Source: Oscillatoria salina IIICB1
GTDB lineage: Bacteria; Cyanobacteriota; Cyanobacteriia; Cyanobacteriales; SIO1D9
NCBI RefSeq assembly: GCF_020144665.1
Contig: NZ_JAAHBQ010000163.1
Span: forward strand, 62,001-126,000
Direction: 5' to 3'
Length of the DNA stretch: 64,000 bases
Made by a program: the position numbers and the translations under genes. Shown here in pieces: positions 35,815 to 51,192 of the stretch (position 1 is its first letter; each line of letters begins with the position of its first letter). The notes under the pieces were generated by a model. That model was not told where the DNA came from, searched no databases, and worked only from the letters and a program-made list of their open reading frames with translations.

Positions 35815-36219
35815 CCATAATAATACTCCTTTTTTTCTAAAATTTTTGTTGGCTTTTTTTTGTATTTTCTGTATTATTTCATCTTTGAATACTTGCGCAG
35901 TAATGCTTTGGGCGCACTACAAATAGCTATTTTTACAAGTAAATAATTTATTTTTCTAAATAGCAAACTTTATTAAACAAACTCAAAACTGATTTACTTT
36001 TGTCAACTTAAATTGCTCTCGAACAGCCCAGAAATAAATTCAGTAGCTAAAATTTTACAACTAAAGTTATAGCAAAACGAAAATTTAATTTATTTTTTAA
36101 GGTTGGTGTAATTAACTGTAAATAAAAAGTAGCGATCGCTCTCCGTAGTTAGAAAAGCTTTGTTGCAATTGTGCTGAATAAATGACAATAATTCGCTTCA
36201 GCGAAATGAGATAAAAATA
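35815..36219. other. AT-rich intergenic region
   Basis: About 400 bases with no credible coding sequence. It is strongly AT-rich, carries one HIP1 octamer near 36133-36140 and a short palindrome TTCGCTTCAGCGAA near 36192-36205 directly before structured repeat A. The promoter of the CBS gene probably lies at its left end. Confidence 0.4.
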
Positions 36220-36540
36220 GGGAGCAAGATACTCCCACTACCAAAAAAAATCGCGTCCACCCAAACTCATTGGTTGCCCCTTCGTAAATCTCTCAGGACT
36301 ACACTACTCAACTCAGTGGAGCCAACCACCCCTAAACAAATAACTTAGTCATTAGTTTCCGACTTTTAGCCGTAATAACATTCACAACACAACTAAGTAG
36401 GAGGAAACCAAATTGTAATACTGGTTGGCTCCACACGAGTAGGGAGTAGGGTAGTGATGTGTGTTTAAATTTAGCGCAAGGACGACGATCGCATCGCCCA
36501 GTTTGCAAGGCTGTTTGCCAACGATTTTGAGTAAACGCGA
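36220..36540. repeat. Structured intergenic element, copy A
   Basis: About 320 bases. Its outer parts are nearly identical to copy B (37546-37820): a left block from GCAAGATACTCCCACTAC through CTCATTGGTTGCCCCTTCG to TCTCAGGACT, and a right block from TTAGCGCAAGGACGACGATC to TGCCAA and AACGCGA. The middle differs in sequence but again forms a long stem: GTGGAGCCAACCA pairs perfectly with TGGTTGGCTCCAC. CGTCC in the left block can pair with GGACG in the right block. Conserved flanks around a variable, compensating stem suggest a structured RNA or a mobile structured element. Orientation is unknown and no associated protein is present. Confidence 0.7.
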
Positions 36541-36620
36541 ACTTTACTTTTACTTAGTACATGATAACTTATTTTTTCGTCTTCACACCATATTTAGTGT
36601 ATTTAATTTTCTTATATTCT

Positions 36621-36716
36621 ATCACTGGTAGTTGAGAGGCGGTAAGCGTTACGCGAAAGCTATGTCAACGTGGGAGTACATTTTTCTACATCTAAAGTAA
36701 AATGGGCAGCAAAATA
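36621..36716. repeat. Partial copy of the 5' segment of element B
   Basis: This 96-base segment (ATCACTGGTAGTTGAGAGGC to about AATACTCC) matches 37462-37560 almost base for base and then diverges. It contains GGGAGTA...TACTCC arms that could fold. It forms the 3' end of the small ORF at 36649-36924, which suggests that insertion or recombination truncated that gene. Confidence 0.75.
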
Positions 36717-36924
36717 CTCCTTTATCTGTTGTTGAGATAGCCCGATATCCTTGAGGATATTTAACATTTGTTATAAATTCGCCACTAATATCTATTATTT
36801 TCAATGGTTTTTCGTCAATAAAAAGTTCTACTTTAGTTCTTTTTACTATTTGGTTACTACCTTGTATTGGGCCGACAAAGAGTGTGTAACCTGATTGAAG
36901 ATCAAATATTTCTACAACCGTCAT
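36649..36924 (-). CDS. Small ORF of unknown function, 3' end formed by a repeat
   Basis: A 91-residue reading frame I do not recognise. The first 70 residues look like ordinary protein (MTVVEIFDLQSGYTLFVGPI, then an alternating beta pattern). The last ~22 residues are encoded by the partial repeat at 36621-36716, so the natural C-terminus has probably been replaced. It begins nine bases after the stop of a gene remnant on the same strand. The layout, a C-terminal fragment followed by a small gene, is seen in toxin/immunity tails, but no toxin motif proves this. Confidence 0.45.
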   Translation of the reverse strand: MTVVEIFDLQSGYTLFVGPIQGSNQIVKRTKVELFIDEKPLKIIDISGEFITNVKYPQGYRAISTTDKGVFCCPFYFRCRKMYSHVDIAFA

Positions 36925-36932
36925 AGTAAAGC

Positions 36933-37094
36933 TTATAGGTAACTATTCCTCATTTTTGTGAGTGCTTTAACATCTGCATCAGACAAACCTAATAGTTTCT
37001 TATGTCTAATCATAAAATATTTGACATGAATTTCAGATCCAGTATCTCCTAGTTTATCAATAATTCCCAAGTGGAAATGCCCCCAGAAGCCCCA
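36933..37094 (-). pseudogene. C-terminal gene remnant
   Basis: An open stretch of 53 codons without a usable start encodes convincing protein (GHFHLGIIDKLGDTGSEI, then KYFMIRHKKLLGLSDADV). Upstream (37095-37150) a different frame reads AELFPDSELASLMGLLG and would join it after a single frameshift near 37085-37090. I take this as the decayed end of a larger gene. The family is not recognised. Confidence 0.5.
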
Positions 37095-37130
37095 TCAGCG
37101 AAGCCAACTCGGAATCTGGGAATAATTCAG

Positions 37131-37463
37131 CTACCAATTTTTTTTCAGTTCAAAACTACCATACAGAATAATCAAATCAAAAATATCTGTATGAAAAAAA
37201 GCAGGTTGTTTGTGTGATTTCTTTCCAAGCTGGAAGTCAATTATATCTGCTTCTATATCGTTTGCTCCTTCTGGAAAAAGTAAAGTCCATTCAATTTTAC
37301 GGCATTTACTGAAAACAAATTGATAAGGCAGTTGCACATCTGGATCGTATACACAATTAATAGCAACCTGGGTTCCCCAAAAGTTGATATCTATTTTTGT
37401 AATTAACGAAGTAAAATCTCCAAAACCTAGTAATGAAAAGTCGTCCATATTGCTAGTCAACAT
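37131..37463 (-). CDS. Small hypothetical protein
   Basis: A 110-residue protein of unknown family (from the ATG at 37463; MLTSNMDDFSLLGF). It is beta-rich by eye with aromatic residues, one Cys pair (NCVYDPD, SKCRKIEW), and no signal or membrane segment. Its start codon lies exactly at the edge of structured element B, so the native promoter has probably been lost or replaced. It is upstream of the gene remnant and the truncated ORF on the same strand. A small protein of this kind might be an orphan immunity protein, but that is a guess from context. Confidence 0.5.
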   Translation of the reverse strand: MLTSNMDDFSLLGFGDFTSLITKIDINFWGTQVAINCVYDPDVQLPYQFVFSKCRKIEWTLLFPEGANDIEADIIDFQLGKKSHKQPAFFHTDIFDLIILYGSFELKKNW

Positions 37464-37820
37464 CACTGGTAGTTGAGAGGCGGTAAGCGTTACGCGAAAG
37501 CTATGTCAACGTGGGAGTACATTTTTCTACATCTAGAGTAAAATTGGCAGCAAGATATTCCCACTACGAAAAAAAATCGCGTCCACCCAAACTCATTGGT
37601 TGCCCCTTCGTAAATCTCTCAGGACTAGACGGCTCAACTCAAAAGCTGTAGTACGGGTAGTGTGGACTTTAATTTCCAAGAAATCAAACCGTAAATCACA
37701 CTACCCTACTACAGCCAAGTCACGAGACGGCTAGTGAAGCGTGTCTAAACTTAGCGCAAGGACGACGATCGCATCGCCCGGTTTGCAAGGCTGTGTGCCA
37801 ATGAATTTAACTGAACGCGA
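37462..37820. repeat. Structured intergenic element, copy B (with 5' extension)
   Basis: The core 37546-37820 matches copy A in both outer blocks. The central stem has different sequence: GCTGTAGTA and GGGTAGTGTG pair perfectly with CACACTACCC and TACTACAGC, with one bulged C. At the base of the stem TAGAC/GTCTA here replaces TACAC/GTGT(G) in copy A, a compensatory change. The 5' extension (37462-37545) is shared with the partial copy at 36621. It also folds: GTGGGAGTA can pair with TATTCCCAC across 37511-37566. Confidence 0.7.
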
Positions 37821-37932
37821 TTTTTAATTTTGATAGTCAATTATAGCACATCAAATCTCAAAAAGCAAGAAATAAACCTCCAACTGGCATCTTTGCGCCT
37901 TCGCGCGTATCACATTTTTACCTCTGTAGAAA

Positions 37933-38280
37933 CTATTCTTCCTCATTAGATGAAATAGGCGCTATTTCTGCTAACAGTTGCTTGGTTAGAGCATAAACAT
38001 CTTGTTTATCTCCTTGTTTGCGCCGACCAATTCCCACTACAATAACTAATATTTGAGCCTGCTGAATTTTATAAACAATTCGATAACGCTGTCCTACGGC
38101 TCGAATACTACGGTAGCCACTTAATTCTTGAGTTAAAGCTTTACCTTGTTTATCTGGCTCATGTTTTAATTTTGCTAGCTTTTTGAGTAATAACTGTTGT
38201 TCTCGACGGTCTTTAATTTGAAGCAAAAGTTGCCGCGCTTGCGTAGTAATAATTACCTGATATTCTAAATCTGACTCCAT
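37933..38280 (-). CDS. RelE/ParE-family toxin
   Basis: A 115-residue RelE/ParE-type protein: VIITTQARQLLLQIKDRREQ at the start, the central LSGYRSIRAVGQRYRIVYKI with the Arg residues used for mRNA cleavage, and VVGIGRRKQGDKQDVY near the end. RelE toxins cut ribosome-bound mRNA; ParE toxins poison gyrase, and these families overlap in sequence. The preceding gene, 13 bases away, encodes a Phd-like antitoxin, forming a typical type II pair. Confidence 0.88.
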   Translation of the reverse strand: MESDLEYQVIITTQARQLLLQIKDRREQQLLLKKLAKLKHEPDKQGKALTQELSGYRSIRAVGQRYRIVYKIQQAQILVIVVGIGRRKQGDKQDVYALTKQLLAEIAPISSNEEE

Positions 38281-38293
38281 TGATTGATAATAG

Positions 38294-38557
38294 TTAAAAT
38301 TCCAGTTCTGCTTTTAAATCCTCTAAACTGATAGTTTCTCCAGCATTTGCTTGCTGAATTCCTAATTGTAACTGAGTCATAAATTCTCGGTCGGAAAGTA
38401 TTTCTACTGTTTCTAAGAGAGATTGAAACTGGGATAAACTCAAAGCCACTATTACAGGTTTACCATCTTTAGTAATGATAGCTGGTTCACTTGCTAATTC
38501 ATTTGGTAATTCAGGTAATTGTTCTTGTGCTTCGGCAATAGTTAGGTATTTAGCCAT
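38294..38557 (-). CDS. Phd/YefM-family antitoxin
   Basis: An 87-residue antitoxin starting MAKYLTIAEAQEQLPELP, with the Phd/YefM core IITKDGKPVIVALSLSQFQSLLETVEIL and an acidic C-terminal tail that would wrap the toxin. I chose the ATG at 38557; the frame stays open upstream only through a GC-rich repeat, which gives an Arg/Ser-rich nonsense extension. Antitoxin before toxin, with 13 bases between them, is standard. It should repress its own promoter together with the toxin. Confidence 0.88.
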   Translation of the reverse strand: MAKYLTIAEAQEQLPELPNELASEPAIITKDGKPVIVALSLSQFQSLLETVEILSDREFMTQLQLGIQQANAGETISLEDLKAELEF

Positions 38558-38603
38558 AGTTAAAGAGTAGGAGTTTTGTTTTAATCTAGCACCAAGTGAG
38601 ACA

Positions 38604-38681
38604 ACGCCTTTGCGTCTACTCGTTCGCGTAGCGTCTCCGTAGGAGAAGCGAGAACGGCTTCGCCGAATGCGCCTTTGCGCG
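38604..38681. repeat. GC-rich cyanobacterial intergenic repeat
   Basis: A segment containing CGTTCGCGTAGCGTCTCCG, TAGGAGAAGCGAGAACGGCT and TCGCCGAATGCGCC. It is much more GC-rich than its surroundings and of a type dispersed in many cyanobacterial genomes (from memory). TCTCCGTAGGAGA can form a small hairpin. It fills the gap between the SWIM gene end and the antitoxin start. Confidence 0.65.
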
Positions 38682-38685
38682 ATAT

Positions 38686-40335
38686 TCATTGAAATTGACG
38701 TGCGTGTTCCATTCGCAAAGCGAGAATATGTTCGCATGGACCCTTATATAACTTATTTTGTCGATGCCAATTGCAAGTACATTCAGCCGCAACAATACGC
38801 TCGTCAGAGTCAACTGTCAAACTGGGAGTAAAATTTTGATAGATGTCTCTCACATTACCTTGAACTGCAAAACCGCCCCCAGCATCGCTAGAACTCGTAA
38901 TTTTGACTTGATTATAAAGGAGAAAGCGGGAAGCTTTTTCCTCCCTTTCATTAGCGAAACGTAGCCTTTCCATTGGTAAAGGTTCGCGGCTGAGTTCCCG
39001 AACGCGGTAAACTTGCTTATTAAGGTCGTAAATTGCCCGTCCTGCTTGAGTATACGCACCTAATGCACCGAGAATAGCAGTTCGACTTAAGTTTAAGCGT
39101 TGGGCGAGGCTGTCGGGCGTTTCCAACCAATTTTCGGCTAAAGCGGCAAAAATAAGTCTTTGGGTATCGGCATCTACATCCGCACGCGGAGCCATAAGAT
39201 CGAAGTTACCAGATTGTGACCAATCGTTAGCCGTCCAACCGGATAAACCGAGAGTAAAAGACATATCTCCTAAGTCAGCGACGTAGAAAGAAGGCATTCC
39301 CGTGCCGAGTAAATGAACGGTAAACTTACGAGCAACGGGGATGAGGCGTTCGAGGATGTGTAAGCGACGACGACCCCAAGTGCGAATAGTTTGTTCTGTA
39401 GATCCAGTGTAAGGCGATCGCGCACAAACTATTTCATCTTCCCACGGTTCTAAAACAATTCGTATTGGTTCCCCTGGTTTGAGGTGATAGCGCAAACTAC
39501 GCGGGCTTTGTTTTTCTTTTTTACGTCGCAACAAAAAGCAGACATTATAAATATCCATTGGATGTAACTCCAACTGAGTTGCTGGTAGCGACATCGCCGA
39601 ACTTACTTGTAAAAAACCTCTTACCCAACTATCAGGTAAATCAATTTTTACTTCTTTAAAACTGTCTTCGTTGGTAGTTTGAACTTCAAAGCCGGAAGGG
39701 TCAATTTGAAATTGCGTGGTTTTGTAACTACGAATTTTTTGGAACTCGTCATAAAGGGCGGCTGAATAGTCTATATTTGTCGTTCCGCAAGCAAATTCGC
39801 TGATATTTTTGAACACTTCATAACTTACACCCAGTCGTCCATAACTCGACTCGTCTTGGGAGAAACATTCAAAAAATACTTCGTCTGGATGGACGGTAAT
39901 TACTGGGTCAAGCACAAACCAAAGATTGTATTCTTTTTTGTAGAGATAACTATAGTAAGCTTGTTGGGCTTGGAAAAAATTATTTCGTTTGCGAGCAATA
40001 GCTTTATCTAAAGTTTGGATTTCTTCATTTAACTGCTTAATTTTAGCAGCAAGTTCTTCTTGTTTCGCGGCTTGCATTTGCCACTCTAAAATACTTGTTT
40101 CTTCTTGTTTTGCTAGCCATTCTTGATAAGCAGTTCTATCTTTTGGTTTGTAGCGTAAGTCAGAGACGACAACATCATGTAAGGCGCTAATTGCTTCTCG
40201 AAAAGCGACGTTTTTGCGTAATTCACCGATAAAATAAGTTGGCTGACGTTTGGTGTCGGGGGAGAAAGACATTTGCGTATTTCCCCCTTGGTTATTGACT
40301 GCGGTATTGTTTTTGTATGCGTAATTGAATTCCAT
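38686..40335 (-). CDS. SWIM zinc-finger protein
   Basis: A 549-residue protein ending in a SWIM zinc finger (about 515-540): CTCNWH, then 11 residues to CEH, the CxC...CxH pattern. The rest is a coiled segment (about 60-110), a long unclassified middle, and a winged-helix-like region (about 395-440: LAQRLNLSRTAILGALGAYTQAGRAIYDL). SWIM domains bind DNA or protein. The gene follows the WGR/HEAT gene by 84 bases on the same strand. In cyanobacteria SWIM and WGR proteins often accompany MoxR ATPase and vWA genes in conflict-type systems (from memory); neither is present here. Confidence 0.82.
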   Translation of the reverse strand: MEFNYAYKNNTAVNNQGGNTQMSFSPDTKRQPTYFIGELRKNVAFREAISALHDVVVSDLRYKPKDRTAYQEWLAKQEETSILEWQMQAAKQEELAAKIKQLNEEIQTLDKAIARKRNNFFQAQQAYYSYLYKKEYNLWFVLDPVITVHPDEVFFECFSQDESSYGRLGVSYEVFKNISEFACGTTNIDYSAALYDEFQKIRSYKTTQFQIDPSGFEVQTTNEDSFKEVKIDLPDSWVRGFLQVSSAMSLPATQLELHPMDIYNVCFLLRRKKEKQSPRSLRYHLKPGEPIRIVLEPWEDEIVCARSPYTGSTEQTIRTWGRRRLHILERLIPVARKFTVHLLGTGMPSFYVADLGDMSFTLGLSGWTANDWSQSGNFDLMAPRADVDADTQRLIFAALAENWLETPDSLAQRLNLSRTAILGALGAYTQAGRAIYDLNKQVYRVRELSREPLPMERLRFANEREEKASRFLLYNQVKITSSSDAGGGFAVQGNVRDIYQNFTPSLTVDSDERIVAAECTCNWHRQNKLYKGPCEHILALRMEHARQFQ

Positions 40336-43602: not shown

Positions 43603-43735
43603 GCTGAGTTAGGCTCCACGCTTTCCTTATTATGGCTGTGGATAGATATTTTATAACTCAGATTGAACATTTCTTCAACTTAGTAATGGTACAAAAACTG
43701 TTTAACTAGACTTGATACCTGCTATTTTGGCAAAT

Positions 43736-44176
43736 ATGACCAGTAATCAGTGGAATAATTTTTTACACTCTACTCAAGGAAGATATAAGACTATTCAGCA
43801 AGCTAGCCTTGCTTACAGATTTAGAAATATACGAGGAGCTACTTACGATCGCGTCATTGAGTGTATTCCCCAAAATGCAACTAGACGATCTCTGTTGCCT
43901 ATTCCTGGTAAGGTTACTCAAGGAGTAGAATATAAATGGAGAGATCGCCAGGATAACACAATTAGAGTTCGTATTCACGGACCCGATCCTTCTGCTCCTT
44001 TAGGAAGTAATGCACGTTGTGGCTGGGTGGTTCGGGTTCAAATAGCTGGTAGATGGCTAGACTACAAGGGAAACTTCCATCATCGCAACATCCATAATCA
44101 AAGTAGTCCATACTACGATGCTAAAGCGGTAAACGATACCCACATTCCTATCCAAAGTCCCACAGGTTTTATATAA
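43736..44176 (+). CDS. Stand-alone polymorphic toxin domain (Ntox30-like)
   Basis: About 146 residues from the ATG at 43736 (a TTG at 43712 is less likely). The C-terminal half carries the pattern I associate with bacterial toxin type 30: YKWRDRQDNTIRVRIHGPDP, then SAPLGSNARCGWVVRVQIAG, and SPYYDAKAVNDTHIPI. Its conserved His, Asp and Arg residues suggest a nuclease, though the family mechanism is not proven. Usually this domain is the C-terminal tail of a large secreted protein; here it has no delivery domains or signal peptide, so it may be a displaced tail. A small HEAT-type gene follows after about 20 bases. Confidence 0.75.
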   Translation: MTSNQWNNFLHSTQGRYKTIQQASLAYRFRNIRGATYDRVIECIPQNATRRSLLPIPGKVTQGVEYKWRDRQDNTIRVRIHGPDPSAPLGSNARCGWVVRVQIAGRWLDYKGNFHHRNIHNQSSPYYDAKAVNDTHIPIQSPTGFI

Positions 44177-44201
44177 AAAAGTTAGAGGAGTTTTGGTGGT
44201 T

Positions 44202-44627
44202 ATGCTGAATTTTATTACTAATCAGCCTAAACAAAGAAACATAATAAAACAAACTGAACGACTTCAAGCTGCCGCAGAATTAAGCGATCGCTTAGAGTTC
44301 GGTGACTGGGATAATGAAGAATATGCCCAAATTCTTGAGAAAGTAGCTAAAGTGGCTGCACAAGAGCAAGATAATGAAATTAGAGAAACTTTGCTCAACG
44401 GAATGGCAAATGCACTTTCACAAAGAGATTGTCATCGTCAGCTAAATTTGGAACCTTTAGTAGAAATAATTAGTAAAGTTGAGGGAGATTGTTTGCTCCA
44501 TATTATCGATATTTTGGGACTATCAAGAAATATAGTCTACGCGCCATCTCTCAAGCTACTATTGCAACATTCTAATCCGGAAATTCGAGAAAATGCTGCT
44601 ATTGCTTTGAGGGAAATGGGAGATTAG
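44202..44627 (+). CDS. Small HEAT-repeat protein, candidate immunity partner
   Basis: About 141 residues (ATG 44202; GTG 44196 is possible, both behind the strong GAGGAG at 44185-44190). It is all-helical with HEAT-like repeats (NEEYAQILEKVAKVAAQEQD, NPEIRENAAIALREMGD). It lies directly behind the Ntox30-like gene on the same strand and converges with the nuclease-translocase gene, ending eight bases from it. HEAT-type immunity proteins are common partners of polymorphic toxins, so neutralising the neighbour is a fair guess. Confidence 0.72.
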   Translation: MLNFITNQPKQRNIIKQTERLQAAAELSDRLEFGDWDNEEYAQILEKVAKVAAQEQDNEIRETLLNGMANALSQRDCHRQLNLEPLVEIISKVEGDCLLHIIDILGLSRNIVYAPSLKLLLQHSNPEIRENAAIALREMGD

Positions 44628-44635
44628 CGATCGCG

Positions 44636-47197
44636 CTATTCTGGTAATTTAATTGTAGGCGCAAATAAACTTTGCAAACGCTGCATTTCTGCGCCGCCCA
44701 GATACAATAAGTCTCCTTTCCCTAGCAAATACTTGGCTTCGGTTTGTTTTCCGCCTAAAATAATCGCTGAATCGGCTTCGCTGGCTGTACGCAGGGCGAC
44801 TCTTCCTGGTAAATTAGAGCGGATGATGGGTGTGACGATGTTGGCATCCGGGCGCTGAGTGGCGATAATTAAGTGAATTCCGGCGGCTCTTGCCATTGCT
44901 CCCAGGCGTTTGATACTATCTTCGAGTACCTTGCGGCTTTCTTTGTCGATCATGAAATCGGCGTATTCGTCGAAGATGCAAACAATTCTGGGTAAGGGAT
45001 TGACAGATTTCGAGTTATATGTATCAATAGATCCGCAACGAGAATTCTCGAAAAGTTGATAACGTCGCTCCATTTGGGAGACTAAATCTTCCATCAGGGA
45101 AATTGCGCGATCGCTATCTTTAACCATTGGTGAGTGTAACCAAGCCATGTCTGCAAATTCCGGAAATGTCACTCGTTTAGGATCGACAAGTGCAATTTGC
45201 AATTGTTCCGGTGTATGGCGATAAATTAGAGAGAGTAAAATACTGCGAAGAAATTCGCTTTTCCCGCTTCCTGTAGTTCCCCCAACTAAGAAATGACAAG
45301 TATTAGGATCGGATAAATTTGCTTCTATTAATTGTCCGTTTAAATCTACGCCAATCGCAATTTTGACGCTGGCATTATGCGCGTTTTGTTCGGATTTAAT
45401 GTAGTCATCAAAGCGAGCAATTTGGCGATCGCTTCGAGGAATATCAACGCTCACATAACCTGCTTGGGGTGCAATCATTGGCGGTTCTTTTGTTGCTAAT
45501 TGTACCTGTAAATCGTCAGTTAATCTCAGCAAAGAAGCAATTTTTACACCTAAATTTGGTTTCAGTTTGACGCGAATAAAAGCAGGTGCAGCCACAGCAC
45601 CCACAAGAGTAACATCAATATTATTATAAGATTGTAAAATAGTTACTAAATTTGACGCAAGATTGTCAACATCAACCTTTAGTTGAGAAGGTTCTGAAAC
45701 AACTAAATTTTCTTCTTTTGTGGGCGTATCTGCAACATTTTTCGCCGAATTTGTATCTCCAGAAAAATAATTTTGACACTTCTCTTGTTGGGGACAAATT
45801 TCGCATAAATGAAGCTGTGTTGTCTGCGGTGGCGGGTTGGGAGCATCTTTTTCCCATCTCAACCACGACTGCATTTGCTGTAACTTATAAGGAATTAACT
45901 CGTGAACTGTATTTTCTAACTCTTCCCAAGAATAATAATACTCTTTAAACTCTGGAAAAATGCAGTAAACGGCTGAATCAACTGGCACTTTTTTCTTTGC
46001 TTGCAGCATATAACTGTAGAGGGCTACTTGTGCTAATTGCGCTGAAGCATCCACAGGTTGATAAGTTTTGTATTCAACTACACCGAGGCGATGTTTACTG
46101 AAATCGAAGATTAAACTGTCGAGTTTACCAGTTAGCCTTTGCTGTGTTTTATCGGGCAGGGTAAAATAATGTTCTAGAGGTAATTCTTCAGCAATGAAAG
46201 TCCGAGTAATTACTTGTTCTCCACTCACATGATGGCGATTTTTTATTAATAATTCTGCCCAATGTTTAAATAATGTAATTAACCCTTGCCAAATTTCATT
46301 TAATGTGGCAGCGCGTTCTGGGCTTTCTTTACTCAGATGAGGTAAGAAAACTAACTCAAAAAATAGTTGTTGCATCTGCAAAGCAACATCTGCGACTCGT
46401 AAATTATTTGCTGATGATTTGAATAACTCTTTAAAACGCGGTTCCTGTTTAGCAATACTAATACATTCGTCAGCTAATTTATGGAAAGTTGTTCCCACAC
46501 CTTTCGTGCGATTTCGTGGTAAAAATAGTGTCCTCCCACCAAAATGTTGCTGTAAATAAAATAAGCGGGGACATTCAAAAGCAACTCGTACTTGAGTTAC
46601 ATTCAAAGAAGTATTTTCTGGTTGTTTAGTTTTGCTCATATTTTGTTTAATATTCGGCTTAGATAGTTCCAATAAACGGAGATGTACTTGAGCTAAATAA
46701 ACCGTATCCATCTTGGCATATTGTAGCTGTTTTTGGCTAAGAGGACGCAATCCCCAATCACTTGCTTGTTGCTCCGCATCTACATTAGCAAAACCGCAAA
46801 GTTCGCTTGCGAGAGTCTTTAATTTGAGGTTAGAAGTACCTAGGCTATGTTTGCCAATTTTGCGAGCTAATTTTAGGGTACAAGTGACATTTTTTGAGCG
46901 TCGTTTATCCAAATATCTCAAGTCAAAGCTAGCATTGTGAAACACTTTTTCGATTGCAGGATTTGCCATGATTTGCTGAATGAATTTATTCACCAAATCT
47001 GGCTTATTTAGGACATCTAATAAATAAGCACAATCTCCTGACAAATCTTGGCAATTTGCTAGCACTTGAATCAGGGAAAGTCGCGGATTAGGTGTATCCC
47101 AGTTCGCTATTTCTGTATCTAGCCACAGGATTTTTTCTGAAGCCAATTTGTTAATTTGCTTACAGATTTCATCGGCTTCTCTCAGGTACAATAACAT
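44636..47197 (-). CDS. DEDD exonuclease - Cas4-like Fe-S nuclease - FtsK/HerA translocase fusion
   Basis: An 853-residue three-part protein. (1) RNase D/DnaQ-type 3'-5' exonuclease, about 1-185: Asp27-x-Glu29, VFHNASFDLRYL, and YAKMDTVYLAQV. (2) PD-(D/E)XK nuclease of the Cas4/RecB type, about 195-485: TGKLDSLIFD and VVEYKT, with Cys209 before and Cys465, Cys468, Cys474 after the nuclease core, the four-cysteine pattern of Fe-S nucleases such as Cas4 and AddB. (3) FtsK-type motor, about 490-853: Walker A GGTTGSGKS (Lys646), Walker B IVCIFDEYADF, and ATQRPDANIVT. All catalytic motifs look intact. It should move along DNA and degrade it. It is the last gene of a tight operon. Confidence 0.88.
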   Translation of the reverse strand: MLLYLREADEICKQINKLASEKILWLDTEIANWDTPNPRLSLIQVLANCQDLSGDCAYLLDVLNKPDLVNKFIQQIMANPAIEKVFHNASFDLRYLDKRRSKNVTCTLKLARKIGKHSLGTSNLKLKTLASELCGFANVDAEQQASDWGLRPLSQKQLQYAKMDTVYLAQVHLRLLELSKPNIKQNMSKTKQPENTSLNVTQVRVAFECPRLFYLQQHFGGRTLFLPRNRTKGVGTTFHKLADECISIAKQEPRFKELFKSSANNLRVADVALQMQQLFFELVFLPHLSKESPERAATLNEIWQGLITLFKHWAELLIKNRHHVSGEQVITRTFIAEELPLEHYFTLPDKTQQRLTGKLDSLIFDFSKHRLGVVEYKTYQPVDASAQLAQVALYSYMLQAKKKVPVDSAVYCIFPEFKEYYYSWEELENTVHELIPYKLQQMQSWLRWEKDAPNPPPQTTQLHLCEICPQQEKCQNYFSGDTNSAKNVADTPTKEENLVVSEPSQLKVDVDNLASNLVTILQSYNNIDVTLVGAVAAPAFIRVKLKPNLGVKIASLLRLTDDLQVQLATKEPPMIAPQAGYVSVDIPRSDRQIARFDDYIKSEQNAHNASVKIAIGVDLNGQLIEANLSDPNTCHFLVGGTTGSGKSEFLRSILLSLIYRHTPEQLQIALVDPKRVTFPEFADMAWLHSPMVKDSDRAISLMEDLVSQMERRYQLFENSRCGSIDTYNSKSVNPLPRIVCIFDEYADFMIDKESRKVLEDSIKRLGAMARAAGIHLIIATQRPDANIVTPIIRSNLPGRVALRTASEADSAIILGGKQTEAKYLLGKGDLLYLGGAEMQRLQSLFAPTIKLPE

Positions 47198-47210
47198 TAA
47201 ATTTGCTTAA

Positions 47211-49238
47211 CTAGGGTTTGGGAAGGTAGACAATAAATTGTTGGTCTGATACTTTCTCAGGGTTATAAACTTTTAGTTGTTTTTCCTGACAAAGCTGGTC
47301 GATTATTTCGCTAATTTTGGCTTGCTCTAAGTCAGCGTAATTGTGTAGAGTTTTTTCTACTAAAGTCTTTCTCGCTAAGTAGCCTTGTGTCTTAGCAATA
47401 TTCAAGATAAATTCTTTAGTTTCTCGATCTTCTTTACCGTTATCATTGGTAGGTTCTTTCTCAGAAACAATTCCTAAATCCTGTAATAATTTACAGTCAT
47501 TAAAAATCTCTGCTTCACGAGTTAAAGTTTCTAATTCTTTTAAACTAATGGCTTTGTCATTAATTACCAATTCGTTACCCAAAGCCGAGTTTACTAAACT
47601 GTGATAAGTTGCTAGTTTGTGAACCGAAGTGAGATTTACTCGCAGGTGAGAATGTTCGGGATTAGAAAATATTTGTCGGTGAATTTGATTACCTGCTAAA
47701 CTAGGTTTCCCCAGACTTGCATTACGAATTAAGTATAACTTTTGGCAATCTTTGGTGTTAACTACTTTTTCGCAAGCTTTCATGACGCTGTAAAAAGTTT
47801 TCATGCTAGCATCTTCTGTCCAAACTATTCCTACTCTGCTGTTTTGTTGGGGATGTTGATAGCTAAAAGAATTGACACTACTTTTGCCGCTTAAAAGCTT
47901 AGGTTTGATTTCTTTTACTTCTAAAGCTGACAAAGCTTCTTGTAGCATTCGGATTAATTCGGGTGCTGCTATTAGGTTGAGTTTGCTAATCCGAGATTGA
48001 ATTTTTTTGTATTCTTGTTGCCAAATTAGTTGGAATTCAGCTATAGGATCTTTTTCTTTAGATTTGGGTAGCGACGTTGAGCCATTTTGATTATTTATAT
48101 TTTCAGGATAAACACCAATACCAATTAAACTGTCTTTATATTTTTGATATTCCTGTCTGGCTACAGCTAAAGCAATTCGAGGGAGAGTTTTCCCGCGAGG
48201 AAACTTCTCTTCAAGAAGCTTTCTCGAAAGAGGAAAAAGAGGATCTGCTTGCTTGGGTTGTGCTTGAGCGTGGAGAGGATAAAGACGAGCTTTCCAAAGG
48301 CTTTCGGCTTGGTCTAAGGTAATTGGTTTGAGGTTAAATAATCCCGCATTTACTCTGACTTTGTCAGCTGATTGAATACGAGATTCGTGCTGTCTCCAAG
48401 TATTAGTTACTAAACTAATAATAATCAAAAAACTGTTGAAATATTGGCTGTGAAGAGTGGAATTGACATTAAACAAAGGCTGTAAGTCAAGATGATTATC
48501 GTCTAGCCGAGGAATATTATCGAGTTGGTCAAAACACAAGACAATTGGCTGTGAGTCGCGAGAAATAAAGCCAAAGTTATTCAGAATATTTTTCGCAGCA
48601 TCTTCGCTGTTGTTGGAACTTTTTACACCTAAAAGTTGTAAATCTTCTTCATCCAAGTCATCGCCGCGTAACCATTCACAGGCAATTGGATGTAATTCTG
48701 GATTATTAAGGTGATAAAGCGCGTTGAAAAATTCTTTGGCATTATAAATATCAGTGGGATAAGTTGCTCGGAGATTGCGGATAAATGTCCGACGTTCACC
48801 GAAGATATTTTTTACCAAGCTGTTATTTCTTAAGGCAGATAAACTTCCTAGCCACAAAAGCAATTGGGATTCTTCTTGACCTTCAGGAATGTGGAGCAAA
48901 CTATCAACAGTTTGGCGAAGAATATGCCGCCAAATGTAGTCGCTATCGGGCCAAGGGTCAATGTAGGCGAAAAAGGCTTTGGGATTGAGTTGTTTTTTTA
49001 AGCGTCCTAAGAGATAACTTTTACCAGAACCTACGTCACCTGTAAGAATTAAGCTGCGGGGACGATTGTCTTTCGCAACTTGAGCGAGTAATTTTTCGAC
49101 AGTGGCGATCGCGTCCTGATGAATTGAGTTGACGTTTGTCTCTTCGTTTTGTTGTTCTCGCCAAAAGTTACTTGAGTAAAGGGTTGTGGAGTCAAAGGGA
49201 TTGACTTCCTGTTGGATAATTTCTTCGATAGATGGCAT
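47211..49238 (-). CDS. P-loop (AAA/STAND-like) ATPase of unknown function
   Basis: About 675 residues from the ATG at 49238 (a TTG at 49262 would add eight). Walker A is LTGDVGSGKS and Walker B IVLCFDQLDNI, both in the first half, in the style of ORC/Cdc6- or KAP/STAND-like ATPases. The C-terminal half (about 430-683) is mixed and ends in a winged-helix-like segment (RKTLVEKTLHNYADLEQAKI, EIIDQLCQEKQLKVYNPE). Its stop lies 13 bases before the nuclease-translocase start. A regulator or DNA loader for that enzyme is the simplest guess. I know no named family for it. Confidence 0.8.
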   Translation of the reverse strand: MPSIEEIIQQEVNPFDSTTLYSSNFWREQQNEETNVNSIHQDAIATVEKLLAQVAKDNRPRSLILTGDVGSGKSYLLGRLKKQLNPKAFFAYIDPWPDSDYIWRHILRQTVDSLLHIPEGQEESQLLLWLGSLSALRNNSLVKNIFGERRTFIRNLRATYPTDIYNAKEFFNALYHLNNPELHPIACEWLRGDDLDEEDLQLLGVKSSNNSEDAAKNILNNFGFISRDSQPIVLCFDQLDNIPRLDDNHLDLQPLFNVNSTLHSQYFNSFLIIISLVTNTWRQHESRIQSADKVRVNAGLFNLKPITLDQAESLWKARLYPLHAQAQPKQADPLFPLSRKLLEEKFPRGKTLPRIALAVARQEYQKYKDSLIGIGVYPENINNQNGSTSLPKSKEKDPIAEFQLIWQQEYKKIQSRISKLNLIAAPELIRMLQEALSALEVKEIKPKLLSGKSSVNSFSYQHPQQNSRVGIVWTEDASMKTFYSVMKACEKVVNTKDCQKLYLIRNASLGKPSLAGNQIHRQIFSNPEHSHLRVNLTSVHKLATYHSLVNSALGNELVINDKAISLKELETLTREAEIFNDCKLLQDLGIVSEKEPTNDNGKEDRETKEFILNIAKTQGYLARKTLVEKTLHNYADLEQAKISEIIDQLCQEKQLKVYNPEKVSDQQFIVYLPKP

Positions 49239-49289
49239 TTTTGACTGTGTGAGGGCTAACAAATTGACTACAAGTTGAGAGAGAAAATT

Positions 49290-50120
49290 TTAGTTGACGA
49301 TGATGAAAAATAATGGACCGCCTATATCTTGCGGAATTCCGGCTTGAACTTGTTCGGGGGTGTAAGAACTAACTTCTTGTAACGTACTCAATTGAATTTG
49401 GTCGTTTTTTTCGAGCCGATAAAGCGCTTCATCTAATTCTTCCCTAAAAAGAGGCGGTTGTAATTTCGATCGCAAGTGGAAAATTGGCAAGTAGTTATCT
49501 GTACCTAATGTGCGGTCTAATTCAGCGATCGCTTGTAGAATTTGCTCATCGCTCGGTTTGTCTGCAAAAGCAGGTAAACTTGGTTCAGTTCGTACTGCTG
49601 ATGACTGAGGTTTTTTCATCTGCTGACGGAAAAAGTTCAGGAAAATTGCCAACAAATCTTGTGTCAGGTTGGTATTTCCCGGACCACTGGGGTTGTATTC
49701 GTACAGTAAAAATTCTTTTCCTCGCTCTGTCAATCTCACTTCTTTGAGTTGGGTTTTGAGTGCGCTAATCAAACCTCGCTCAACTAAAGCTTGAATGACG
49801 CTTTGGCGGGTGTCGGTGGGAATTCTCGTGTCGCTAGGGTTAATTGTCCCTTTCGCACTGGCTTTGAGTGCTTTTAATTCGTCTTTGCTTAAAGGTAATT
49901 CCGCCGCATCTGCTTCGAGGAGAGCTTTTCCGGCAGGCTCAATTTTAAGTTTTGTAACTTCTTCGGGTGCTTCCACCAAATTAAGAGCGCGCAATTCGCG
50001 ACAAATTTTATCGCGTTCTGAGGCTCTTGTCCCAGAGGTCGGTTTGAGTTCGGTAATTGATGCTTGGTAGTCTGGTTTGCTAATTAGTCTCAGGAGAAAC
50101 TTGAGTTGTTTAACGTCCAT
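49290..50120 (-). CDS. Winged-helix protein, first gene of the nuclease-translocase operon
   Basis: A 276-residue protein apparently made of several winged-helix units: MDVKQLKFLLRLISKPDYQA with a following ALNLVEAPEEVTKLKIEPAG, then TRQSVIQALVERGLISALKT, then DNYLPIFHLRSKLQPPLFRE with LYRLEKNDQIQLSTLQEV. The end GIPQDIGGPLFFIIVN is strongly hydrophobic. No catalytic motif is visible. It may bind DNA or the ATPase encoded 27-51 bases downstream. Similar proteins occur in other cyanobacteria as I recall, but without known function. Confidence 0.75.
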   Translation of the reverse strand: MDVKQLKFLLRLISKPDYQASITELKPTSGTRASERDKICRELRALNLVEAPEEVTKLKIEPAGKALLEADAAELPLSKDELKALKASAKGTINPSDTRIPTDTRQSVIQALVERGLISALKTQLKEVRLTERGKEFLLYEYNPSGPGNTNLTQDLLAIFLNFFRQQMKKPQSSAVRTEPSLPAFADKPSDEQILQAIAELDRTLGTDNYLPIFHLRSKLQPPLFREELDEALYRLEKNDQIQLSTLQEVSSYTPEQVQAGIPQDIGGPLFFIIVN

Positions 50121-50198: not shown

Positions 50199-51155
50199 TT
50201 AAGACGATTTTCCTCTCCGCAAAGTTTCAAAGGCTTTTTTTCTGATTCCTAACGGCAACCACGACAAAACTAACCCTGTTCTCGCTTTTGAGGGAGAGAA
50301 AGATTTACCTGCTTTAACTAATTCTCGTCCCGCTCGGGTTTCTCCAGTTTCAATTAAACGCAATCCTAACATTAATTGCGCTTCTGACAGCCGTTCTTGA
50401 CGAATTTTCTCTAGTTTTGCTGACTCGAATTGATAGTTTTTTAAATAGTTAATTTTATCTCTTAAATAAGGTATTGCTCGCTTGATTCCTTGTTGTTCGG
50501 CGTGAACCCGATATTCCATCAATTTTTCCGGAAGATAATAACCTCTTTTTCCTGCTAAGGCTAAACGGACAAATAAATCGTTATCTTCGCAATTTTGAAT
50601 ATTTGGTAGCATATAACCGACTTTTTGTAAAGTCGCGCGGCGAAATAAAGTTGCCCCAATTTGAAAGCTTTGTCTGACAAAAACAACTGTTAATAAATTT
50701 GCAACTATTCCCTCTGCGAGTTGACTTCTACCCCATTTTTGCGAGTTAATTTTGGTTGCTGATTCGTCCCGGAGATTATTAATATCAATTATCCAGTGAT
50801 CTGTCCCGACAAAATCCACTTCAGGGTGTGTATCTAGGATAGCACTGGTCTTAGCAAGAAATTCGGGCGTGAGGCGATCGTCGTCATCAAACTTAAGAAA
50901 ATACTCGCCAGTTGCAGCCGCAAAACCAGAGCGCATATTGTTACTTTTACCAATATTTTCCGCATGACGGATATAATTTACGCGATCGTCTTTTTCCTGA
51001 TAGCGAGACATTAACTTTGGGGTTTCATCCGAGGAACCATCATCACAAACAATTAATTCCCAGTCGGTAGTTGTTTGTTGGAAAACGCTTTCCAGCGCCG
51101 TTTTTAGCAAGTTAACACGATTAAAAGTTGGTATACATACACTTATTTTTGCCAT
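50199..51155 (-). CDS. Family 2 glycosyltransferase
   Basis: About 318 residues from the ATG at 51155, which opens on the classical GT2 start MAKISVCIPTFNRVNLLKTA; an upstream in-frame codon at 51182 adds nine unlikely residues. ELIVCDDGSSDETPKL and FDDDDRLTPEF provide the nucleotide- and metal-binding motifs (DDD). NCEDNDLFVRLALAG is the acceptor-side ED motif. It makes a polysaccharide or glycoconjugate bond of unknown type, and is adjacent to two more glycosyltransferase-like genes. Confidence 0.9.
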   Translation of the reverse strand: MAKISVCIPTFNRVNLLKTALESVFQQTTTDWELIVCDDGSSDETPKLMSRYQEKDDRVNYIRHAENIGKSNNMRSGFAAATGEYFLKFDDDDRLTPEFLAKTSAILDTHPEVDFVGTDHWIIDINNLRDESATKINSQKWGRSQLAEGIVANLLTVVFVRQSFQIGATLFRRATLQKVGYMLPNIQNCEDNDLFVRLALAGKRGYYLPEKLMEYRVHAEQQGIKRAIPYLRDKINYLKNYQFESAKLEKIRQERLSEAQLMLGLRLIETGETRAGRELVKAGKSFSPSKARTGLVLSWLPLGIRKKAFETLRRGKSS

Positions 51156-51192
51156 TTTATTTCTTGAAGCTAACCTCGTCAACTAGCAGTTT

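Follow-up and report, generated by a model that had tools for sequence, protein, structure and literature searches.

What is the function of a tightly packed gene set that joins winged-helix proteins and an ATPase to a protein with two nuclease domains and a DNA motor? The question is raised by three genes of the cyanobacterium Oscillatoria salina IIICB1 (GCF_020144665.1, contig NZ_JAAHBQ010000163.1), here called A, B and C. They lie at 44636-50120 on the minus strand of the window, the 64,000-nucleotide stretch of DNA that was analysed (contig positions 62,001-126,000, forward strand), and its features are given in window numbering. The three genes form a true operon, and we lean towards the reading that it encodes an accessory restriction-like module which recognizes and degrades invading DNA, be it from phages, plasmids or transformation. 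The genes, the domains of C and the gene flanking A are as follows:

49290..50120, minus strand: gene A, 276 residues, predicted triple winged-helix DNA-binding protein (units at about 1-70, 79-141 and 191-276)

47211..49238, minus strand: gene B, 675 residues from its ATG, predicted ORC/Cdc6-like AAA+ ATPase with an alpha/beta insert at about 398-590 and a C-terminal winged helix

44636..47197, minus strand: gene C, 853 residues, predicted DEDDy exonuclease, iron-sulfur (Fe-S) PD-(D/E)XK nuclease, FtsK-alpha and FtsK motor

46667..47170, minus strand: exonuclease domain of C (DEDDy, 3'-5'), residues about 10-177, with D27, E29, D92, Y160 and D164

45770..46606, minus strand: putative Cas4/AddB-type Fe-S nuclease domain of C, residues about 198-476, with C209, H239, D360, E375, K377, C465, C468 and C474

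44639..45679, minus strand: FtsK-alpha and FtsK motor of C, residues about 507-853, with K646, D743, E744 and Q781

50199..51182, minus strand: glycosyltransferase flanking A, outside the module; its counterpart next to A in locus L073 is 71% identical

The coordinates, strand and lengths of the three genes, first given in an earlier note on this DNA, were re-derived and are all correct. The TTG at which B is annotated to begin is probably not its true start; as homologues begin at the ATG at 49238 ('MPSIEEII'), we place the start there. The gap between A and B is therefore 51 bases, which narrows the 27-51 bases allowed by the earlier note, and its 13 bases between B and C stand. Median gaps in 31 intact single-copy loci are 54 bases (A-B) and 24 bases (B-C). 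Taken together, this recurring tight spacing and the invariant motifs described below place the architecture far beyond chance. Promoter-like sites in the region were found near shuffle expectation and terminator-like sites somewhat above it, mostly inside genes; neither scan was informative, and no structured RNA was found in the region.

Gene C matches four Pfam families, all above the curated cut-offs: DNA_pol_A_exo1 (residues 10-176, E=4e-26), PDDEXK_1 (198-475, E=5e-15), FtsK_alpha (507-587, E=2.5e-6) and FtsK_SpoIIIE (606-783, E=6e-42). When the window's C was aligned with 31 cyanobacterial homologues, the exonuclease residues D27, E29, D92, Y160 and D164, the cysteines C209, C465, C468 and C474 and the motor residues K646 (Walker A), D743/E744 (Walker B) and Q781 were invariant in all 32 sequences, and the nuclease residues H239, D360, E375 and K377 were kept in 31. 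The observation is thus real and the motifs are strongly constrained. Cysteines arranged as C...CxxCx5C around PD-(D/E)XK motifs are the pattern of the Cas4 and AddB Fe-S nucleases. The middle domain of C shares this layout with Cas4, AddB and Dna2 and matches two Cas4 models (E=6e-7 and 2e-6), from which we assign it as a putative Cas4/AddB-type Fe-S PD-(D/E)XK nuclease. Unlike those enzymes, it shares its polypeptide with a DEDDy exonuclease and an FtsK motor, and C has neither CRISPR adaptation partners nor a RecBCD-type helicase partner. Among solved structures bacterial FtsK is closest to the motor (E=5.5e-50), and no FtsK gamma domain was detected in C. Another protein encoded in this genome, RNase D-like and separate from C, is 51% identical to the exonuclease domain.

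The AlphaFold2 model of A (predicted local distance difference test score, pLDDT, 88.7) contains three helix-helix-helix-wing units, and its Foldseek matches in the Protein Data Bank (PDB) are winged-helix proteins, if weak ones. Homologues with 37-60% identity occur in 39 other loci. B matches Pfam AAA_16 (E=5e-9); the lysine of its Walker A motif (G67-K73) is invariant among 44 homologues and its Walker B D237 nearly so. A sequence search with B against solved structures found no relatives. Modelled by AlphaFold2 from a 44-sequence alignment (pLDDT 88.6), it returned ORC/Cdc6 chains as its first 28 Foldseek matches in the PDB (best E=4e-5). The model places an alpha/beta insert at about 398-590, after the AAA+ part and before the C-terminal winged helix; read within the full B model, this insert has a restriction-enzyme-like order of elements in which D...ExK is not conserved, and it may be a degenerate restriction-enzyme fold. 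The models thus point to A being a triple winged-helix protein and B an ORC/Cdc6-type AAA+ ATPase with a C-terminal winged helix. The domain assignments made earlier from the sequence hold throughout: three domains with intact motifs in C (Asp27, Glu29, Cys209/465/468/474, Lys646), where Pfam and the alignment agree and the PDDEXK_1 match with its conserved residues identifies the middle domain; a P-loop ATPase with a winged-helix-like end in B, in line with AAA_16, the Walker motifs and the model; and a multi-winged-helix protein in A, modelled with three such units. Tandem duplicates of B (A-B-B) were seen at loci L067, L079, L103, L107, L140, L144 and L173, often without C.

Is such a combination of parts new? 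The earlier note knew of no described system with this order. That was too strong, since the operon fits the description of 'HerA-FtsK capture', a class predicted to act against invading elements (Rakesh, Aravind & Krishnan 2024, PMC10853773). As described in that paper's main text, the neighbourhoods of this class are mobile and combine an Orc/CDC6 ATPase carrying an inserted inactive restriction endonuclease with an active restriction endonuclease and a HerA/FtsK motor; one set has FtsK-alpha, a separate protein has two to four winged helices, and a 3'->5' exonuclease is fused to the FtsK component in some. The likely counterparts here are B, which belongs to the Orc/CDC6 AAA+ clade by Foldseek of its model and has an alpha/beta domain, perhaps of restriction endonuclease fold, inserted before its C-terminal winged helix; A, as the multi-winged-helix protein; and C, in which FtsK-alpha and an FtsK motor are fused to a DEDDy exonuclease and a putative restriction endonuclease-type nuclease (D360/E375/K377 in 31 of 32). 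The differences are that exonuclease, Fe-S nuclease and motor form one polypeptide, that the nuclease is Cas4/AddB-like and that variants with a dead nuclease or with ParA/ParB association exist. Hence, the operon fits as a variant of this in-silico-predicted class; cyanobacteria, Cas4 and Fe-S nucleases do not appear in the main text of that paper. The present loci add the putative Fe-S identity of the nuclease and, as detailed below, a dead stand-alone form of it, an HsdR_N-ParA/ParB companion and near-confinement to genomes with DndC; a computational prediction of Orc/Cdc6, FtsK and nuclease parts thereby becomes a compact three-gene target with defined active sites. Related HerA/FtsK-centred BREX-like systems are the subject of a 2026 paper (PMC12839542).

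Two other systems were compared. SspFGH of Vibrio anguillarum (PMC8092258) is likewise a three-gene system that includes a Walker-A ATPase and a motor protein of the FtsK type, and among PADLOC models the motor of C matches the motor part of SspH best (E=2e-67). This match is, however, confined to the FtsK-alpha/motor end of C, while the SspH models span 1255-1766 positions; the similarity between B and SspF is restricted to some 45 residues surrounding the P-loop (E=1e-4), and A matches no Ssp model. DndFGH resembles the operon in its set of an ATPase, a triple winged-helix protein and a nuclease-FtsK/HerA protein, but A, B and C have no PADLOC match to any Dnd F, G or H model, C has no domain of the SNF2-like, beta-sandwich, TRD or methylase-like kinds described for DndH, and B is ORC/Cdc6-like instead of a P-loop kinase. 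With no SspF or SspG homologues and no DndF, G or H model among the PADLOC matches, membership in either system was rejected on sequence.

How the module is distributed bears directly on its function. Of the genomes sampled from the same order, 45 of 104 carry a full-length B; outside the order none of 282 cyanobacteria does. The distribution, which the earlier note had proposed to survey, is thus patchy and not universal in cyanobacteria. In a scan of 84,980 species' genomes, all of the best 79 loci are cyanobacterial; these come from the best 80 of 225 matches, which leaves room for rarer carriers outside cyanobacteria. The order A-B-C recurs across dozens of cyanobacterial loci, with Fischerella thermalis, Nostoc, Dolichospermum and Calothrix among the carriers. 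For A, B and C, pairwise distances correlate with one another at r=0.80-0.87 (some genomes occur twice in the set), which indicates that the three genes are co-transmitted. Many cassettes are flanked by a glycosyltransferase pair on one side and by a ParA gene next to ileS on the other; the window locus has the glycosyltransferase side of this site without the ParA/ileS side. Elsewhere the same site holds decayed remains of all three genes (L205) or fragments of C (L191, L203, L201), and in other genomes an HsdR_N-ParA and ParB-like pair, or nothing. The conjugative plasmid pPSE7367.01 of Pseudanabaena PCC 7367 carries a copy that lacks the exonuclease.

The composition of C also varies. It is fused to TPR and pentapeptide repeats at L101 and to DUF4145 at L105, while at L088 it carries a protein kinase domain and the nuclease is a separate gene. 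Variable accessory fusions have been reported in the literature for DndF-type systems, and by analogy those of C appear to be of a kind typical of conflict systems. In Okeania, Trichodesmium and relatives the sole C homologue of the locus is a stand-alone middle domain after A-B (L113, L115-L117, L121, L123, L125, L126, L137). All nine of these domains keep the four Fe-S cysteines and have lost the PD-(D/E)XK catalytic residues (H239 to L/V, D360N, E375 to N/H/D, K377Q), and judged by these substitutions the nuclease is naturally dead. They offer a natural mutant series for separating the catalytic from the structural roles of the Fe-S domain.

These observations make defence the preferred reading, and a plausible one. 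It is supported by nuclease and motor motifs that are intact over deep divergence, by the co-transmission and conserved order of A, B and C, by a cassette that is patchy and has decayed or been swapped at a fixed site, by the copy on the conjugative plasmid, by the variable fusions of C and by the independent prediction of the same domain set as a counter-invader, as described in the main text of PMC10853773. A and B would recognize a DNA feature, assemble on duplex DNA into a platform or ring that depends on ATP, in the manner of ORC/Cdc6, and recruit C. With the FtsK motor of C pumping the duplex, the Fe-S nuclease would cut or resect it and the DEDDy exonuclease would strip 3' strands, leaving the DNA unable to replicate. 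The anti-phage or anti-plasmid idea of the earlier note is thus carried by the domains, the operon, the patchiness, the decay, the plasmid copy and the fusions, but neither by its lack of precedent nor by a defence neighbourhood.

Several results weigh against a defence role. Between cassettes and random regions of the same genomes (127 proteins each, E<=1e-20), PADLOC families number 44 versus 59; defence-island enrichment was therefore rejected, and the argument from neighbouring defence genes is limited to this window. Searches of phage records and IMG/VR gave no relative, and carriage by phages or prophages was rejected on this ground. Some genomes keep A-B with no nuclease beside it, and no experimental study of the operon was found in the literature, the coverage of which was incomplete. 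Finally, the cassette distances also correlate with those of IleS (r=0.55-0.74), and together with the many cassettes at one conserved chromosomal site this indicates largely vertical inheritance. Such a signal, like the position near ParA and ileS that is conserved in many Nostocaceae-type genomes, would suit a role in chromosome maintenance or repair, in which FtsK-driven end resection of the AddAB/Dna2 kind acts at stalled forks or unresolved chromosomes of polyploid filamentous cyanobacteria; the combination of an Fe-S PD-(D/E)XK nuclease, a motor and a 3' exonuclease does resemble resection enzymes. More than half of the order's genomes lack the module, however, decayed remnants occur, the module is swapped with the HsdR_N-ParA/ParB pair and a copy is plasmid-borne. 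Repair is a serious alternative to defence, although we consider it rather unlikely.

The ParA-type companions bring a further explanation into view. An HsdR_N-type nuclease fused to ParA, with a ParB-like gene adjoining, was found at L094:6788-8898, L092, L096, L189, L192 and others, including some loci with the stand-alone middle domain, and from these arrangements appears to be a recurrent neighbour or replacement of A-B-C. No description of an HsdR_N-ParA fusion was found in the literature searched. Across the 122 loci left after deduplication, the fusion gene is present beside 15 of the 35 cassettes that lack an active C and beside 8 of the 87 that have one (p=5e-5, relatedness uncorrected); a strict rule by which it always replaces a missing C was rejected, as 20 loci have neither. 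The recurrence of this pair and of another ParA, ParA294, as well as the conjugative plasmid copy, would be expected if the module served a plasmid or other mobile element itself, in partition, exclusion or incompatibility, and not host immunity. Such a role is very improbable: nearly all copies are chromosomal, only 1 of 72,556 plasmid records matches the module, and ParA294 is widespread in genomes without it. For the latter reason ParA294, present in 97 of 386 genomes, many of them without B, was also rejected as a fourth cassette gene and is regarded as a neighbour. Tandem ParA paralogues (63% and 50% identical to ParA294) lie beside a reverse transcriptase open reading frame at G000:C37:55056-58342, on a contig without a cassette.

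Is the module linked to a DNA modification? A rival explanation is that A-B-C is the restriction partner of the cyanobacterial DndBCDE phosphorothioate modification and attacks unmarked DNA, much like SspFGH and DndFGH in other organisms. Genes for DndB-like, DndC, DndD/PbeC-like and DndE proteins lie on a contig of this genome other than the module's, and no DndFGH was found beside them; a genome search with the DndH model TIGR03238 was uninformative, as no control gave a match. In Cyanobacteriales dnd modification genes are reported to be ancient and vertically inherited, and they are reported as enriched in Cyanobacteria, from which dndFGH is reported absent (PMC8569181). This makes A-B-C an attractive candidate partner, and the match of its motor to SspH points the same way. 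Within the order, 43 of the 45 carriers of B and 49 of the 59 non-carriers have DndC (Fisher p=0.06), and complete C with the exonuclease occurs in about 30 of 92 genomes with DndC and in none of 12 without it (p=0.017, a post hoc hand count). A family-balanced sample gave p=0.02 for the DndC association, whereas well-assembled or complete genomes only gave p=0.12. As DndC occurs commonly across the whole order, the association is weak; it is also uncorrected for relatedness. Two genomes (G194, G103) have B without DndC, and at none of the loci seen are the Dnd genes linked to A-B-C on the chromosome. The proposed partnership is accordingly doubtful. Slightly more doubtful still is its extended form, in which A-B-C is the missing restriction half of the cyanobacterial Dnd system, the dead stand-alone nuclease marks an exchange of effectors around an A-B sensor-loader core, and the Fe-S domain would be kept as a DNA-binding platform. 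The operon nevertheless provides a concrete candidate for what, if anything, reads the cyanobacterial Dnd mark.

The Ntox30 toxin, HEAT, WGR/HEAT and SWIM proteins that the earlier note had placed next to the operon are all present by profile matches. Two of them match PADLOC models of retron type XIII effectors over most of their length:

38686-40335, minus strand: SWIM protein, SWIM_XIII match, 812 bits

40420-43602, minus strand: WGR/HEAT protein, WGR_XIII match, 1172 bits

In contrast to retron type XIII, the window contains no reverse transcriptase, and the two RVT_1 matches of the genome lie on other contigs; the effectors are an entity separate from A-B-C. At the Pseudanabaena plasmid locus (L188) a SWIM protein, beside an SNF2 helicase, adjoins the cassette. 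Convergent with C, the plus strand at 43712-44627 carries an Ntox30 open reading frame (E=2e-37) followed by a HEAT-repeat one, which together look like a polymorphic-type toxin/immunity pair. Farther away, the gene-poor stretch at 35900-37900 contains three pairs of direct repeats (100-123 nucleotides, 0.8-1.3 kb apart, 80-96% identical) and is followed by a Phd/RelE-like toxin-antitoxin pair at 37933-38737.

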